A stretch of 31,705 nucleotides of DNA from a virus. Of this stretch, positions 8,968-31,553 are shown in pieces. The translations under genes and the position numbers were made by a program. Location of the stretch: positions 1 to 31,705 of IMG/VR virus record IMGVR_UViG_3300031898_000211, one strand, 5' to 3'. Numbering within the stretch: the first letter of the stretch is position 1; every line of letters begins with the position of its first letter. Below the pieces are notes generated by a model. The model did no database searches, was not told the origin of the DNA, and saw nothing but the letters and a program-made list of their open reading frames with translations.

Positions 8968-9593
8968 CAGGCGTCATCTGTGATATCTGCGGCAACATTG
9001 TGCTCTCCGGAACCCTTAAGGTTGTACCGGTTAAATTCGGAGAGAGAACTGAGCGGGTCCGTGTTTGCGAGAGATGTTGGCGCCGAGATCGAGAAGCACC
9101 AGAGAAATACATTAGAAAACACTTCGAGGTTTCACGAGGCGTCAAGGTCACCCGCGAAAGGATTGTGAAGCTTCCAGGGGTACCCCCCGGGATATCCCGG
9201 GGGGTCCTCCAGATCCGCAGGGACATCGCAAAGATCAGAGGTCTATTATTCAAACCTGAGAAATGGCCTCTCAAAAAAGGCGTAGTGGATATCCGCGGTA
9301 TCAGAGCTGATGTCATCGCAAAGCTGGTTGACGCAATCAGTGTGGCGCAATCTCTAGCAGAGAAGGCCCCTGCGACGGCTGAGGTTGGCGCTGCTGACGT
9401 AACGAAAGCACGATACTACCATCTGCTAGGCTACATTGCTCAGGTGCTTGACTCAGTGCTGCGAAGCGCTTCGCAAGGCGAACTTGACGAACGGCTCAAG
9501 CGGGTTGAGAAGATACTAGATGAGCTCGAGAGAAAAGATCAGAAGCCTAGAACGGAGAGCCCAGCAGCTTCAACGTCTCAAGCGCAGCGCTGA
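8964..9593 (+). CDS. Zinc-ribbon/coiled-coil protein; candidate small terminase
   Basis: 209 residues from TTG 8964. An N-terminal zinc ribbon (CDIC ... CERC, residues ~6-36) is followed by a basic linker, a helical middle and a C-terminal coiled coil (ELDERLKRVEKILDELERK). It sits directly before the large terminase and overlaps it by 74 nt, the usual position of the small (DNA-recognition) terminase subunit. Small-terminase identity is inferred from position and architecture only. The gene contains a 24-bp perfect GC-rich palindrome at 9182-9205, possibly a packaging or regulatory site. Confidence 0.5.
   Translation: MTGVICDICGNIVLSGTLKVVPVKFGERTERVRVCERCWRRDREAPEKYIRKHFEVSRGVKVTRERIVKLPGVPPGISRGVLQIRRDIAKIRGLLFKPEKWPLKKGVVDIRGIRADVIAKLVDAISVAQSLAEKAPATAEVGAADVTKARYYHLLGYIAQVLDSVLRSASQGELDERLKRVEKILDELERKDQKPRTESPAASTSQAQR
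9182..9205. repeat. 24-bp perfect GC-rich palindrome inside the zinc-ribbon gene
   Basis: The half-site ACCCCCCGGGAT is followed by its exact reverse complement (centre GAT|ATC). It lies within coding sequence (peptide PGVPPGISRG) about 315 nt before the large-terminase start. Packaging start sites of several tailed phages lie inside the small-terminase gene, so this is a candidate recognition site; an RNA hairpin acting on translation is the alternative. Confidence 0.75.
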
Positions 9594-10419
9594 GATCAGC
9601 CGCGCAATCCCAGAGGATCCTGTTGAATTCGCTCAAGACTTCTTCCGGGTGAAAGCGTTTGGATATCAACGGAAACTCGCGGCTGCTTTCCTTACATTTC
9701 TCACGATCGTAGTGAGATGGAGTCGTCAAACAGGCAAGTCGTTCTTCGTTGCTATCCTGCTCATCTGGTATGCGTTGAAGCATCCAGGCGTAGAGATCGG
9801 CATCGTAGGGCCCTCTCTTCGACAAGCGAAGCTGTACATTCAACGCATCAACGGTTTGCTCACGAAGATTAATCCAGGCTACTACGAGCGGCCTTTCAGA
9901 AAGACCATGGTACGATTCCCAAACGGCTCGCTCATTCAAGCTTTCCCAAATAACCCGGAGACGATCCGAGGCCACACATTGCATGCGGTCTGCTGGACTG
10001 AGATGAACTTCACACCCGACGACTTGGACATGTACGATGCGATCAGCTATGCCATGGCAACGACAAACGGAATCTTCATCGGCGAATCAACACCCTGGAC
10101 CCGGAATCACCTCTTCTACCGAATGTTCACTGATGATGAAGCGTATCCGCCGAAAGAAGTCTTCCGATCGCATGTCTCCTGGCGAAACGCTGTAAAACCG
10201 AAAGGCCCACTGGAACCCAAATTCATCGAGCGGAAAAAGAGGGAAACCGCTTCGGATCCATCCAGATGGCAACGTGAAATGGAGGCGGAATGGGCTGAAG
10301 ACGAGGACCTCTACTTCCCACTGGACCTAGCCTCGAAATGTATCGGCACCGAGAAGAACATCGGAGTCGACCTCGAGTACATTCCAGAAGAATTGATCTT
10401 CGTAAAGCAGGGTGATTAA
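9520..10419 (+). CDS. terL: Large terminase, ATPase half (truncated before nuclease domain)
   Basis: 299 residues of the DNA-packaging motor. A Walker-A-like loop RWSRQTGKS spans 66-74, Walker B with catalytic Glu is HAVCWTEM (155-162), and the coupling motif is GESTPW (188-193). After the ATPase domain comes the linker DEDLYFPLDLASK, and the frame stops at TAA just after VKQGD, where a nuclease domain beginning GEF-YIGVDLG would be expected. That nuclease domain is found separately at 11187-11855, beyond an antisense gene. The gene starts at ATG 9520 inside the preceding coding sequence. Confidence 0.85.
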   Translation: MSSREKIRSLERRAQQLQRLKRSAEISRAIPEDPVEFAQDFFRVKAFGYQRKLAAAFLTFLTIVVRWSRQTGKSFFVAILLIWYALKHPGVEIGIVGPSLRQAKLYIQRINGLLTKINPGYYERPFRKTMVRFPNGSLIQAFPNNPETIRGHTLHAVCWTEMNFTPDDLDMYDAISYAMATTNGIFIGESTPWTRNHLFYRMFTDDEAYPPKEVFRSHVSWRNAVKPKGPLEPKFIERKKRETASDPSRWQREMEAEWAEDEDLYFPLDLASKCIGTEKNIGVDLEYIPEELIFVKQGD

Positions 10420-10454: not shown

Positions 10455-11150
10455 CTACCTGAAGAAGATGAGGGACACTGTTTCGAATATCGCGTTCAGA
10501 GCCGTTAGGACTGCGCATAGTATGAGCCATGGTAGGCTGGCCTTCAACTCTTTCTTCAATGTAAGCCTCCTCTGTTCCTCCTTTAGATGGAGTGGGGCTA
10601 TCAACGCGGTCTTAAGGAGGGCTTTTCCAGACAGTCCTTTCTGAGACTCCCAACCAACTCTATAGCCTATCGCGCACGCCACAATATAGCCAGAAGATTC
10701 AAACGCCAAGAACAACAGAAAGAATGCAAGTCCTAGTGGAGGAAGATTGGTCAGTATCTTCATGAAGCTTGGAGCACCCACCAAGAAGCCGAAGCCAAAC
10801 CCTGTAGTAACAGCGAAAAATAGTGGAAGGACATAGAATAGAATCCCCGTCACAACGAAGCGAAGCACCGAACCCAAAGAGAAGTTGAGCAAGAAGATCC
10901 AAAGACCCACCAGAAACGGGCTCCTAATCCTCACAGCCGCTGCCAAAGGTGAGGACCAAGGATCGCTGAACAATTTTCCAACCAAGAGCAACATCCAAGC
11001 TTCACTAACGGTAGGAAACAGTAAAGCTAGGAGAAGACCAACGCCATAAGAACAGGCATAGATCAAGAAACTTCTTTTCAACTCCAGCCTCAAAGCATCA
11101 GTACACCGTCGGAACTTGGTGTAAATACATGTATCTATGCTCCCAGCCAC
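10455..11150 (-). CDS. SpoIIM-like (DUF95) membrane protein inserted antisense in terminase
   Basis: 231 residues, GTG start at 11150, with about five membrane helices. The run LPPLGLAFFLLFLAFESSGY followed by IVACAIGYRVG, with Glu in a helix then a small-residue helix, matches the 'hG-fElpAi-iagaaG' signature of SpoIIM/COG1300 proteins, which are common in archaea and of unknown biochemical role. It is one of only a few minus-strand genes in the viral block and lies between the two halves of the terminase. It looks like acquired cargo rather than a virion gene. Confidence 0.6.
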   Translation of the reverse strand: MAGSIDTCIYTKFRRCTDALRLELKRSFLIYACSYGVGLLLALLFPTVSEAWMLLLVGKLFSDPWSSPLAAAVRIRSPFLVGLWIFLLNFSLGSVLRFVVTGILFYVLPLFFAVTTGFGFGFLVGAPSFMKILTNLPPLGLAFFLLFLAFESSGYIVACAIGYRVGWESQKGLSGKALLKTALIAPLHLKEEQRRLTLKKELKASLPWLILCAVLTALNAIFETVSLIFFR

Positions 11151-11186: not shown

Positions 11187-11855
11187 ATGGAATCTATTCA
11201 GCGAGTTTTGAAAGACGACGACCGCTACTTTCCATCAGATCTAGCATCGAAGCATATGGTCATGATTCTGGAACGTATTCCGGAGAGCGTGCTTTCTAAC
11301 ATGCAGCAGGTTCAATCATCTCTTTTGACGGGGGAATTCTACATTGGCGTGGACTTGGGCAAGAAGAGAGATCATTCCGTTATTGCGGTTATCAGGAAGG
11401 ACGGCGACATTCTGAAGCTTGTCTTCATGAAACAGTTTAAGCTTGGAGCAGATTACAGCGGCCCAGTGATGGGTTCGATCAGAATCCTCTGCGAAAAACT
11501 GAATATGGTCCATAAGATCTGCATCGATCAAACTGGTGCCGAATACTTCGTTGAAGACTTGATGAAGGTTGTCAAGGTTGAAGTCGAAGGTATCATGCTG
11601 ACGGTTCCCTCGAAGCAAGAAGTCCTCGGCTTCATGCGGACCGTTATGCAAGCTGGAAAACTCTACTATCCCTATGATGAGGAGTTGCTGGCTGAGATCA
11701 CTGTTGAACGCTATGAACTGATGAAATCCGGCCAGATCCAGTTCAGTCATCCAGATGGAACTCATGATGACAGGCTTTGGGCCCTCGCCCTAGCCGTTTA
11801 CGCTACTCGAGGCGTGAAACCTCCTAGACCTTTACCGACTACCAGGACGTTTTAG
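11187..11855 (+). CDS. terL: Large terminase, nuclease half
   Basis: 222 residues with the RNase-H-fold headful nuclease of large terminases: Asp56 in YIGVDLGKKRDHS, Asp114 in CIDQTG, and Asp194/195 in HDDRLWALALA. Residues 10-23 (DDDRYFPSDLASK) repeat the linker at the end of the ATPase half (DEDLYFPLDLASK) with clear divergence, so this is not simply the severed 3' part. Both halves keep their catalytic residues, so a functional two-chain terminase is possible. The ATG start at 11187 lies just after the antisense gene's start region. It ends PPRPLPTTRTF, three bases before the portal gene. Confidence 0.85.
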   Translation: MESIQRVLKDDDRYFPSDLASKHMVMILERIPESVLSNMQQVQSSLLTGEFYIGVDLGKKRDHSVIAVIRKDGDILKLVFMKQFKLGADYSGPVMGSIRILCEKLNMVHKICIDQTGAEYFVEDLMKVVKVEVEGIMLTVPSKQEVLGFMRTVMQAGKLYYPYDEELLAEITVERYELMKSGQIQFSHPDGTHDDRLWALALAVYATRGVKPPRPLPTTRTF

Positions 11856-16088: not shown

Positions 16089-16556
16089 TTGGCAGCAGGA
16101 GATGTCATTCAGGAATTTGCGTATCGGAAACGCAAGGTTAAACTGAAGACGACCACGGGATGCACGAAAGGCCAAGTGCTCGCATACGACACGGATGGCT
16201 ACGCATCAGTCGCCTACGTTCCTGGCACAGGAATACCGGGAACAGGCATAGGTCCATACTATGTTGCACTTCAAACCGTCGCAGCTCCAACCTCTGGCCA
16301 ATCTGAGGTTGAGGTTCTTGAGGAAGGAGTTGTAGAAATCGAGAAAGTCACAGGCGCAATCGCTGACGGAGCTTGGGTGGTCCTCTCAACGACAGCAGGG
16401 AAAGTCACTGCATTCACCAACGCAGATGTAGGCGCCACATACGCTGAAGACACAATTCAAGACGCGATAGAAATGATCTATCGACGAGTCGGCAGAGCTT
16501 ACGGAGCCGCCGCAAGCGGTGACACCACAGTGAAGATTCGACTGCTATCAGCATAG
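16089..16556 (+). CDS. Capsid decoration (cementing) protein, DUF2190-like
   Basis: 155 residues from TTG 16089, three bases after the scaffold stop. A beta-rich, Gly/Ala/Val/Thr-rich protein (GDVIQEFAYRKRKVKLKTTTG, GQVLAYDTDGYASVAY, VVEIEKVTGAIADGAWVVLS) with the composition of the small decoration proteins usually coded just before the major capsid protein. These bind the mature capsid surface and stabilise it. Confidence 0.65.
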   Translation: MAAGDVIQEFAYRKRKVKLKTTTGCTKGQVLAYDTDGYASVAYVPGTGIPGTGIGPYYVALQTVAAPTSGQSEVEVLEEGVVEIEKVTGAIADGAWVVLSTTAGKVTAFTNADVGATYAEDTIQDAIEMIYRRVGRAYGAAASGDTTVKIRLLSA

Positions 16557-16568
16557 GAGGAATCGACT

Positions 16569-16742
16569 TTGACAGATAAGATAACAGGAGTGCTGCAAGC
16601 GAAGGTTTGGAGAAACCCAGTTAACGGCAAGATCTTCCAGGGAGAGATGGACGTAAGATACGCGCAGTTCGTCGACATCACGAACATTCAGGCCATTGAG
16701 GCGCAGGTTGTTCTCGAGGAAGTGTTAGGGCTCGCGAGATAA
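16569..16742 (+). CDS. 57-codon ORF; probable N-terminal part of the major capsid protein or separate small protein
   Basis: Starts at TTG 16569 with GGAGG eight bases upstream and ends with TAA 16740-16742. The peptide (VWRNPVNGKIFQGEMDVRYA, then a helix NIQAIEAQVVLEEVLGLAR) looks like the N-terminal arm and helix of an HK97-type capsid protein. Joined to the next frame it would give 317 residues, a normal capsid-protein length. The next frame has no ribosome binding site of its own. Between them lies an 82-nt structured gap. Either this is an independent small protein, or both parts are joined by RNA- or translation-level recoding. Confidence 0.65.
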   Translation: MTDKITGVLQAKVWRNPVNGKIFQGEMDVRYAQFVDITNIQAIEAQVVLEEVLGLAR

Positions 16743-16811
16743 GTTGAGATCTAGCCCTTAAAAGGGCCTAGTTAAAAGATCCAGGTGAGCGCACTGGATC
16801 CGGGTCTCAAC
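16743..16811 (+). other. Three-way-junction RNA element between the 57-codon ORF and the major capsid gene
   Basis: Starting at the base after the stop codon: outer stem GTTGAGA (16743-16749) pairs with TCTCAAC (16805-16811), extendable by wobble and GC pairs. Inside are hairpin 1 at 16751-16771 (CTAG plus CCCTT pairing AAGGG plus CTAG, one bulged C) and hairpin 2 at 16778-16800 (GATCCAG/CTGGATC, 9-nt loop). All pairs were read directly. It ends 13 nt before the capsid GTG. It lacks the T-arm of a tRNA and the core of a hammerhead ribozyme. Confidence 0.6.
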
Positions 16812-16824
16812 TGCGCACCGGGAC

Positions 16825-17607
16825 GTGCAACCCCGATACACTTTGCGGGAACTATGCAGAATAGTTCGGATGAATGAACTGACCGCGGAGATCGACGTCG
16901 CGACAAAGCTCACCGGCGTAGAGAAAGTGCCGCCTCTCGTTGAAGCAGACGTGAGCGCACAATCCTACACGCGTGTACCCTTCGACCTCTGGAAGAACGT
17001 TGTCCACGTAGTTATCGCTGACGAATCAGTGAAGAAGGCTACTCACGACATCTATGGATTGCATACAAGCGATGCAGCTCGCGACTTAGGCCGCATGGAG
17101 AACAAGCAGATCGCAGACATCTTGAAGGATGCAACGGATATCACAGGTGAAGATTGGGGAGCGATGACAACGCCCCCGAACAGCGACTACAACCCCTTCA
17201 ATTCTGACAAAGGGATTCCAGCAGGGATCAAGGCAATATCGCAGGGCGGCTACTCGCCAACCCATGTGACCATGCACTCAGATGTGTGGGCTGACTTCAT
17301 CAGCAACAGCTACGTCCAGAAGTACGTTGACGCAGGCTTGCTCCGCGTACCGGAAGGACAAGCAGGCGTACTATCACTGCCAATGTACCCGAGCCTGAAG
17401 ATCATGATAGACGACGCTTTACTGAACACAGCTTGCTACGTGGTCGCTCAAGACGCGCCCGCTGTTGTGCTTGGCGAAGGCCCGACAGAATCTGCCAAAT
17501 ATCGCAATGAAGCCGCCGGATATTCAGCATTCATACTTAGAAGCTGGCTCCAGCCCAAGTTAGTGCTTTCAGCAGCAGCTCGCGAAATTACAGGGGTTCA
17601 CGCTTAA
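16825..17607 (+). CDS. Major capsid protein, HK97-like fold
   Basis: 260 residues from GTG 16825. The sequence (MNELTAEIDVATKLTGVEKV, VSAQSYTRVPFDLWKNVVHV, DAARDLGRMENKQIADIL, a Gly/Ser-rich loop, then a beta-rich C-terminal domain with VVAQDAPAVVLGEGP) fits HK97-type major capsid proteins by pattern and by position between decoration and connector genes. It is short for the family, and the missing ~50-60 N-terminal residues correspond well to the preceding 57-codon ORF. There is no Shine-Dalgarno before the GTG, odd for the most abundant virion protein. Confidence 0.8.
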   Translation: MQPRYTLRELCRIVRMNELTAEIDVATKLTGVEKVPPLVEADVSAQSYTRVPFDLWKNVVHVVIADESVKKATHDIYGLHTSDAARDLGRMENKQIADILKDATDITGEDWGAMTTPPNSDYNPFNSDKGIPAGIKAISQGGYSPTHVTMHSDVWADFISNSYVQKYVDAGLLRVPEGQAGVLSLPMYPSLKIMIDDALLNTACYVVAQDAPAVVLGEGPTESAKYRNEAAGYSAFILRSWLQPKLVLSAAAREITGVHA

Positions 17608-29397: not shown

Positions 29398-29434
29398 CTG
29401 CAGAGGAGAGAGGTCCAGAAGATAACAAAGGTGA

Positions 29435-29507
29435 GGGGCGGCCGGGGCTCGAACCCGGGCTCAGTTCTCCGCAAAAGAACTCTTCTATCCGTCTAAAGTA
29501 CCGCCCC
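29435..29507 (-). tRNA. tRNA with anticodon UGC (Ala-type anticodon, atypical identity elements)
   Basis: A 73-nt cloverleaf reads cleanly on the minus strand: 7-bp acceptor GGGGCGG/CCGCCCC, D-arm CUUU/GAAG with GG in the loop, anticodon arm GUUCU-UUUGCGG-AGAAC (anticodon complement at 29471-29473), 5-nt variable loop, T-arm CCGGG-UUCGAGC-CCCGG. UGC would read alanine GCA codons, but the G3:U70 pair needed by AlaRS is absent (G3:C70), the next base is U instead of A73, and 10:25 is C:G. CCA is not encoded. A promoter lies upstream. Confidence 0.8.
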
Positions 29508-30270: not shown

Positions 30271-30417
30271 CTATCCGCTTCCTGTTTTCCGCGTCTCTTC
30301 AATCGGTCGGTGAATCTCTTTGAGCGCTGCTTCTAAGCGATCTTGAATCTCCTGTAGTAGAGCTTTCACCTTCGGCCGGCAGTTCTCGCAGAAATCCTCA
30401 AGTTTGGGTAGGCTCAA
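30271..30417 (-). CDS. 48-aa CxxC coiled-coil protein downstream of integrase
   Basis: TTG start at 30417 shares TTGA with the integrase stop. The peptide (FCENCRPKVKALLQEIQDRL EAALK split at a helix) has one CxxC and an amphipathic helix. It ends at TAG 30271-30273, after which the same frame continues with AYAEGVEMLERREGR to a TGA overlapping the next ATG. That downstream peptide looks coding, so the TAG may be a recent nonsense mutation, a readthrough site or chance. Confidence 0.5.
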   Translation of the reverse strand: MSLPKLEDFCENCRPKVKALLQEIQDRLEAALKEIHRPIEETRKTGSG

Positions 30418-31553
30418 GAATCAAGCCTCCTTCTGACTTGCTCTACTTCTCCATTGAGCAGATTGAGCTTTGCGAAGGCTCTCTCCATTATGGCAACCTT
30501 CTCTTTGAGTGTCCGTATCTCGTCCTGCTGATTCTTGCTGCCGGTTTCACCTGAGATCAGGTTCAGATAAGGTAGAGCTTTCCTGTATTCGTCGACTACG
30601 AATTGTGGGTGTGTCTTCCAGAACTTCTTGTAGAGGTTCGAGTCTATCTGCTTCAAGTGGCCCATCAGGAATTCGCAGACCTTCTCGTTGGCGCCGCTTA
30701 CGGTCCAGACGCTTGATGCTAGATCCCGGGTCTCATGCGAGTGGTAGCCGTACCTTGTGCCTCTATTGTTATGTTTGCGCGGCGTGAGCTCCAGCCTATT
30801 CGTTAAGCTCCGCCAAATATTCTGCATGCACTTTCGTGAGACTGGGATCCCTTTCTCAGTCAGCCAGATCGGTCCATTCTTGCTAGGCGGCTCCCCATAC
30901 TTCTCCAGGTAGGGCTTTAAACCGTACTTGATCGCGTCTCCGCCGATCAGCGTGTAGAAGGGATATTCACTTCGCTTGCGAGGCGGAAGATCCAAGTGGA
31001 TGATGTCTGCGCCGGCGTCCAGCTGCTGCTTTATCTGAGGCCAGCCGTGGAGATTCACGTATTCAAGCTCTCGGACACCCATCAACCCATGCCATTTGAC
31101 GAGGATCATGCAGCGGTCACGAGGCTTAGCAGCCATAATGATCTGCTTCACATCATCAATCGTCAGCTTCGCGGAGGTAGGAGGCTGGACGCCTTGCATA
31201 TGGAAGCTCCTCTGAAACCTCGGATCCCTAGGCAAAGGCGCATGATGATAAGCGAAAAGCTGCCCCAAAACGCTATAGACGGTCCGCTTGTAGCTACGCC
31301 TACCCTGAAGCTGAGCAACAAAACTCTCCACAACCTTCAAAACCTCATACGCATCATCGCCCCTCGCAAACTTCTGACGCTCAATCAAATCGGCAAGCGG
31401 CACCCCTGCATAACCCAGAAAACCCCTCACAATACTACGCAACGTCCTGCGGCTACCAGGATCATAACTGGAAAGCCAATCATCCACAAGACCAACCTGA
31501 AACAGCTGGGTCAAATCACCTACACAACCAGACTCTAAAAATGATTTAATCAC
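30414..31553 (-). CDS. int: Tyrosine recombinase (integrase)
   Basis: 379 residues from GTG 31553. An N-terminal core-binding helical domain (~1-120) precedes the catalytic domain with Arg161 (GLMGVRELEYVNL), His273/Arg276 (HETRD), His299 (FLMGH) and nucleophile Tyr308 (NLYKK). A C-terminal coiled coil (~345-379) could mediate oligomerisation. All catalytic residues are visible, so it looks active. It faces away from the adjacent uL22 gene and lies at the right edge of the provirus, the usual position next to an attachment site. Confidence 0.85.
   Translation of the reverse strand: MIKSFLESGCVGDLTQLFQVGLVDDWLSSYDPGSRRTLRSIVRGFLGYAGVPLADLIERQKFARGDDAYEVLKVVESFVAQLQGRRSYKRTVYSVLGQLFAYHHAPLPRDPRFQRSFHMQGVQPPTSAKLTIDDVKQIIMAAKPRDRCMILVKWHGLMGVRELEYVNLHGWPQIKQQLDAGADIIHLDLPPRKRSEYPFYTLIGGDAIKYGLKPYLEKYGEPPSKNGPIWLTEKGIPVSRKCMQNIWRSLTNRLELTPRKHNNRGTRYGYHSHETRDLASSVWTVSGANEKVCEFLMGHLKQIDSNLYKKFWKTHPQFVVDEYRKALPYLNLISGETGSKNQQDEIRTLKEKVAIMERAFAKLNLLNGEVEQVRRRLDS

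Follow-up and report, generated by a model that had tools for sequence, protein, structure and literature searches.

A structured 91-nt insert in the major capsid gene of a putative Bathyarchaeia virus is a candidate archaeal mRNA intron

The major capsid gene in the window, an IMG/VR virus record of 31,705 bases analysed here over its whole length, is interrupted by a 91-nt insert with a conserved RNA fold, and this insert is very probably removed at the RNA level, by one route or another. The route towards which we lean, taken as a whole, is excision as an mRNA intron by the host tRNA-splicing endonuclease (EndA) and joining of the exons by the ligase RtcB. Introns in archaeal protein genes are very rare, and cbf5 is the classic case. 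If the insert is spliced, virion production would be coupled to the host tRNA-splicing machinery through the mRNA of the most abundant virion protein, and this well-defined, conserved substrate would allow one to ask how widely archaeal pre-mRNA splicing is used. If it is self-spliced or bypassed by ribosomes, it would represent a new class of element. Gene callers annotate such interrupted capsid genes as truncated.

The initial annotation described a 57-codon ORF preceded by GGAGG and ending at TAA, an 82-nt insert, and a capsid frame opening at a GTG. The first ORF (16569-16742, TTG start) is present with its ribosome binding site, as is the second (16825-17607, 260 codons, in-frame GTG at 16825). 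Alignment with homologues placed the boundaries differently. The window reads EVLGLAR (to 16739), then the insert, then PRYTLR, with the frame resuming at CCC (16831); the insert is 91 nt long, its boundary being ambiguous by one base, and the supposed GTG start falls inside it. The coordinates of all parts are listed in Table 1.

Table 1. Features of the interrupted capsid gene, its insert and other genes in the window
Feature	Position	Strand	Basis or remark
Ribosome binding site AGGAGG of the interrupted capsid gene	16555..16560	+	sequence
Capsid exon 1, 57-aa N-terminal part up to GCG AG	16569..16738	+	joined to the C-terminal part without a break in 49 intron-less loci
Insert (putative intron), 91 nt	16739..16829 or equivalently 16740-16830	+	exact removal restores LGLAR-PRYTLR
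Capsid exon 2	16830..17607 (frame from CCC 16831, stop 17605-17607)	+	53% identical to L001
Three-way junction	16742..16812	+	compensatory changes in P1, P2 and P3
P1	16742-16751/16803-16812	+	8/10 pairs with compensatory changes
P2	16751-16758/16763-16771	+	4/6 pairs with compensatory changes
P3	16778-16784/16794-16800	+	3/7 pairs with compensatory changes
Hairpin P4 (GCAC/GUGC), predicted alternative to helix H	16815..16828	+	fold; similar hairpin in relatives
Helix H (putative), 5' strand CGCG	16733..16736	+	pairs with 16824-16827 (CGUG); kept in 5/5 at the bulge-helix-bulge register
Helix H (putative), 3' strand CGUG, at the 3' end of the insert	16824..16827	+	kept in 5/5 viruses
Putative exon-exon outer helix, exon-1 strand GUGUUAGGG with 16831-16839 CCCCGAUAC	16722..16730	+	complementarity higher in intron-bearing than in intron-less genes
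Terminase large subunit, ATPase part	9520-10419		first ORF of two
231-aa membrane-protein ORF	10455-11150	-	between the two terminase ORFs
Terminase large subunit, nuclease part	11187-11855		second ORF of two
tRNA-Ala	29433-29507	-	right end of window
Integrase	30414-31553	-	right end of window

Homologues bear out the proposal that the element splits a capsid gene. The gene is contiguous in 49 intron-less loci of related Bathyarchaeia viruses and proviruses, which comprise L001, L080 (the same record fetched again), 16 copies in Bathyarchaeia genomes and 31 virus-contig loci retrieved by a search with a nine-sequence alignment; some of the 49 are near-identical pairs. Contiguous capsids typically carry the motif EVLGLAR-P-x-Y-x-LR, and the 57-aa segment of the window aligns as their contiguous N-terminus. 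L001, for example, has a single capsid ORF of 306 aa, the N-terminus of which resembles the 57-aa ORF while the rest matches the 260-aa ORF (53% identity).

The product of the window gene is an HK97-fold major capsid protein, as initially assigned. Among 34 aligned proteins, 28 were assigned to the PHROGs 'major head protein' annotation and 17 matched PF05065. An AlphaFold2 model of a contiguous relative reached a pLDDT of 86.5 with these 34 sequences as input (an earlier run with 9 sequences gave 45.6, was not used, and was repeated with the 34), and Foldseek matched it to the capsid of Haloferax tailed virus 1 (E = 2.9e-14). In this model, the position of the junction corresponds to the end of a confidently predicted long helix.

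Exactly the same codon junction, GCG AGA^CCC, is interrupted in four other viruses (L081, L083, L084 and L085). Their inserts are 89, 89, 86 and 86 nt long, respectively, and thus differ modulo 3 from the 91 nt of the window; all have stop codons in the frame of exon 1, and exact removal restores the frame each time. The shared insertion spot makes it very probable that the insert is removed from the mRNA like an intron. A DNA pattern of the two exon ends at intron spacing, run against the whole of IMG/VR with possible omission of the window's own record, matched exactly these four contigs, and two further scans for intron-bearing viruses returned the same four only.

All five inserts share the three-way junction, and the RNA structure of the insert is under selection. 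The initial annotation placed a 69-nt element with two hairpins at 16743-16811; the element and both hairpins hold, and the closing stem has 8-10 bp rather than 7. The window insert folds at -37.2 kcal/mol (z = -4.1), a value equalled by 1 of 1000 dinucleotide shuffles, and the z-scores of the other inserts are -1.7 (L081), -5.1 (L083), -5.1 (L084) and -5.7 (L085). The covariation analysis called for at the outset showed that the stems covary with those of the four relatives. In the five-sequence alignment, which was fitted to the structure and represents about three independent lineages, 94.2% of cells pair and 15 of 38 pairs show compensatory double changes, a number reached by 0 of 500 shuffles; sliding the partner columns by 1-3 positions destroyed the pairing signal. 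A covariance model built solely from the four relatives gave a 62-bit match in the window (E = 2.7e-12, E-values from these searches being rough) over positions 16720-16850, which take in exon flanks. Covariance scoring was strongly strand-biased (148.7 versus 24.2 bits in L124), and the covarying pairs include G-U. Both observations argue that the element acts as RNA and not as DNA. We also noted an unpaired UNAAA between P2 and P3 (about 16772-16777 in the window) that occurs in 5/5 inserts even though the surrounding stems have changed almost completely.

The element was otherwise rare in our searches. No second copy was present in the loci searched with the four-relative covariance model. 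A 111-nt DNA query and a single-sequence model (R1) gave nothing above chance in 257 Bathyarchaeia genomes other than that of the window's host, and a further model (R3), applied with strict filters and no positive control, gave no match in 398 Thermoproteota genomes. DNA pattern scans with pieces of the window element returned chance or unrelated matches only, and Rfam, including its group I and group II intron cores, gave no match in the window or its relatives. A MITE or IS200-IS605 palindromic element was also considered and set aside, given one copy per virus, always at the capsid site, and none in the 257 Bathyarchaeia genomes.

The arrangement of the putative splice sites fits cleavage by EndA. 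In all five viruses, a 4-bp helix (helix H) can join bases -6 to -3 before the 5' cut with bases -6 to -3 before the 3' cut, by the pairings CGCG:CGUG, CGCG:CGCG or UGCG:CGCG; between the exon-1 end and the insert end, no further 4-bp helix is common to the five. If each of the triplets that follow, AG/A and NN/A, is cut behind its second base, the product has exactly the junction that the protein requires. Archaeal tRNA and cbf5 introns with a bulge-helix-bulge are cut in this geometry (PMC2738675, PMC4090602). Exon 1 and exon 2 are complementary around the junction at 8.8/10 positions in intron-bearing genes and at 5.0/10 in intron-less ones (p = 3e-4, with kinship ignored). All five intron-bearing genes have the codons GGG, GCG, AGA and CCC; among intron-less genes that encode the same residue, GCG occurs in 4/40 cases and GGG in 7/45. 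Synonymous identity rises close to the junction (40/56 versus 351/800). EndA (PF01974) was found in 15/15 related host genomes carrying related capsids and RtcB (PF01139) in 14/15. Eight of these genomes hold two EndA copies, which would suit a heteromeric enzyme, and enzymes of that type have relaxed specificity.

In the proposed mechanism, two pairings would form in the pre-mRNA: an outer helix between exons 1 and 2, and helix H (4-5 bp) between the end of exon 1 and the 3' end of the insert. The two triplets would stay unpaired. The three-way junction would bring both splice sites together, and it may also contribute to recognition or mobility. EndA would then cut after the second base of each triplet, and RtcB would join the exons to give AGA CCC (Arg-Pro).

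This substrate would not be a canonical hBHBh' motif: across from the 3' bulge lie 1-2 exon bases, and the inner helix is not adjacent to the 5' bulge. Known relaxed substrates (BHL) also lack parts of the canonical form (PMC12397907), hence these departures lower membership in the canonical form only. Helix H has a probability of about 0.01 in the unconstrained fold of the window, where it is disfavoured by competition from hairpin P4 (2.3 kcal/mol). Moreover, most of helix H and of the outer helix is protein-coding sequence, which varies too little for covariation to prove either helix. It is due to the relaxed motif, the weak helix H in the window fold and these unvarying helices that we hold RNA-level removal to be no more than very probable and the EndA/RtcB route to be only somewhat favoured.

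RNA excision was one of three joining mechanisms put forward initially, and it is the best supported of them. The second, programmed ribosome bypass as in T4 gene 60, would have the ribosome leave before the folded element and land after it, with no RNA cut. We consider it quite unlikely. The folded gap does follow the takeoff region directly, a stop codon comes immediately after AGA in the window and in L083 (AGA-TAA; the stop lies further on in the other three), and a GCG/GCG codon pair flanks the gap in 4/5 viruses. However, no takeoff/landing pair is conserved in 5/5: the window has GCG/GTG, which keeps the base pairing of helix H but breaks codon identity. Landing at the GCG-pair site would insert Gln, Thr or Lys rather than the family's usual Arg, and takeoff at AGA lacks a cognate landing codon (CAA, ACA, AAA). 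Bypass would predict neither the exon-exon pairing nor the fixed synonymous codons. The parts consulted of an archaeal recoding review explain ribosome hopping by T4 gene 60 and mitochondrial byps and give no archaeal case (PMC8211752). A new small self-splicing intron, in which the three-way-junction RNA would catalyse its own removal and exon-insert pairing would set the splice sites, also seems rather improbable. The strongly conserved structure with its joining sequence UNAAA goes beyond the needs of EndA, and the patchy distribution resembles that of mobile introns. Against this, known group I and group II introns are far larger than 86-91 nt, Rfam gave no match, and the loops of the insert are otherwise poorly conserved, unlike a catalytic core. 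The conserved core does exceed what EndA requires, and we regard it as possible, though unlikely, that archaeal viruses carry here an RNA element of a new kind (86-91 nt, possibly mobile) rather than an EndA intron; it would then be either a very small self-splicing intron from a novel class or the first archaeal bypass element.

The remaining explanations fare worse. Two separate polypeptides that assemble together, the second made by reinitiation or coupling at the second ORF, would suit the in-frame GTG (16825) and the two-ORF terminase of the same virus. Yet L081 and L083 lack that GTG, and L084 and L085 have another sequence in its place, hence the third of the initial mechanisms, reinitiation at the GTG, fails. 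No ribosome binding site was seen before a later ATG, upstream of which the conserved PxYxLR is still under selection, and the junction sits at the end of the predicted long helix; we judge this reading very unlikely. Excision at the DNA level, with the element leaving the genome before capsid expression, would explain the precise junction and the intron-less copies in relatives. It is highly improbable, as the G-U covariation and the one-strand model score point to RNA and there is no flanking repeat except the short GCG, which helix H explains. Insertion of a mobile element that broke the gene in a dying provirus is scarcely credible. The insert is short and hairpin-rich and the setting is that of a provirus, but the relatives already contradict such an event: it would need independent insertions at one site and no selection, whereas five viruses share the identical site, both exons are under purifying selection, any target-site duplication is at most 1 base, and no other copies were found.

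The putative EndA intron has several counterparts. Archaeal pre-mRNA introns are known from cbf5, and the BHB-like, EndA-cut cbf5 intron of Crenarchaeota (PMC2738675) is likewise a small intron in an archaeal protein gene with a relaxed motif, an exon-intron helix and cuts after the second bulge base; the window insert is no multiple of 3 in length. Unlike the cbf5 intron, the present insert lies in a viral major capsid gene, has a conserved, covarying three-way-junction core and an outer helix between the exons that leaves exon bases facing the 3' bulge unpaired, and is patchy across its virus family. With archaeal tRNA and rRNA BHB introns it shares a central helix that pairs the 5' exon with the intron's 3' end, and its size is within the tRNA intron range (11-129 nt, PMC4090602), but it is in an mRNA and has no inner helix abutting the 5' bulge. 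The T4 gene 60 element and mitochondrial byps are also folded gaps in coding sequence that are skipped to join two frames; the capsid inserts differ in size (86-91 nt versus 50), in having no takeoff/landing pair common to all five, and in their exon pairing and splice-site geometry. Phage group I introns in structural genes likewise occupy a conserved position in an essential virion gene and occur in a patchy, non-monophyletic manner, but the capsid inserts are far smaller and have neither an Rfam match nor a homing endonuclease ORF. Putative introns in archaeal virus protein genes have a precedent in 12-bp insertions, which the passages of PMC2738675 citing Peng et al. describe as arising during infection, with splicing not shown; by contrast, the capsid element is long, conserved and structured. 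No intron in an archaeal virus capsid gene was found reported in the open-access literature, and the word 'intron' is absent from a survey of Bathyarchaeia viruses (PMC10848311).

Judged by its gene content (portal, two-ORF terminase, capsid and later genes, integrase, tRNA-Ala), the window looks like an archaeal tailed virus or provirus. A P-type ATPase at its left end has a best Bathyarchaeia-class match of 59% identity, and no provirus-end repeat of at least 16 bases was found within the window. A 40-bp stretch (80% identical) is repeated at the inner ends of the two terminase ORFs. We had considered the split terminase as a mark of a decaying provirus and dropped this idea, since the terminase of relatives G033 and G032 (L050, L051) also consists of two ORFs, which overlap there. 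In another intron-bearing virus, the portal frame (L122:8719-10026, minus strand) has a TAG near its N-terminus, directly before a plausible internal ATG, which is probably trivial.

Both exons are under purifying selection among the other four intron-bearing viruses (dN/dS 0.05-0.09 for exon 2, 0.09-0.31 for exon 1), which indicates that these are not dead or broken genes. In the capsid tree, the window is placed with L001, which has no intron (99/92), and the other four next to the proviruses L037/L038, likewise intron-less (96/84). The intron-bearing capsids are therefore not one clade, and at least two gains or losses are needed. The window's portal protein is closest to that of an intron-less virus (52%, versus 45-50% to the intron-bearing ones). 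This patchy occurrence would fit either spread to a specific site or numerous losses of an old intron. Lastly, IMG record 3300032069 holds both L001 (intron-less) and L085 (intron-bearing), members of the same capsid family in one metagenome, and the spread or loss of the element is thus traceable within a single habitat.
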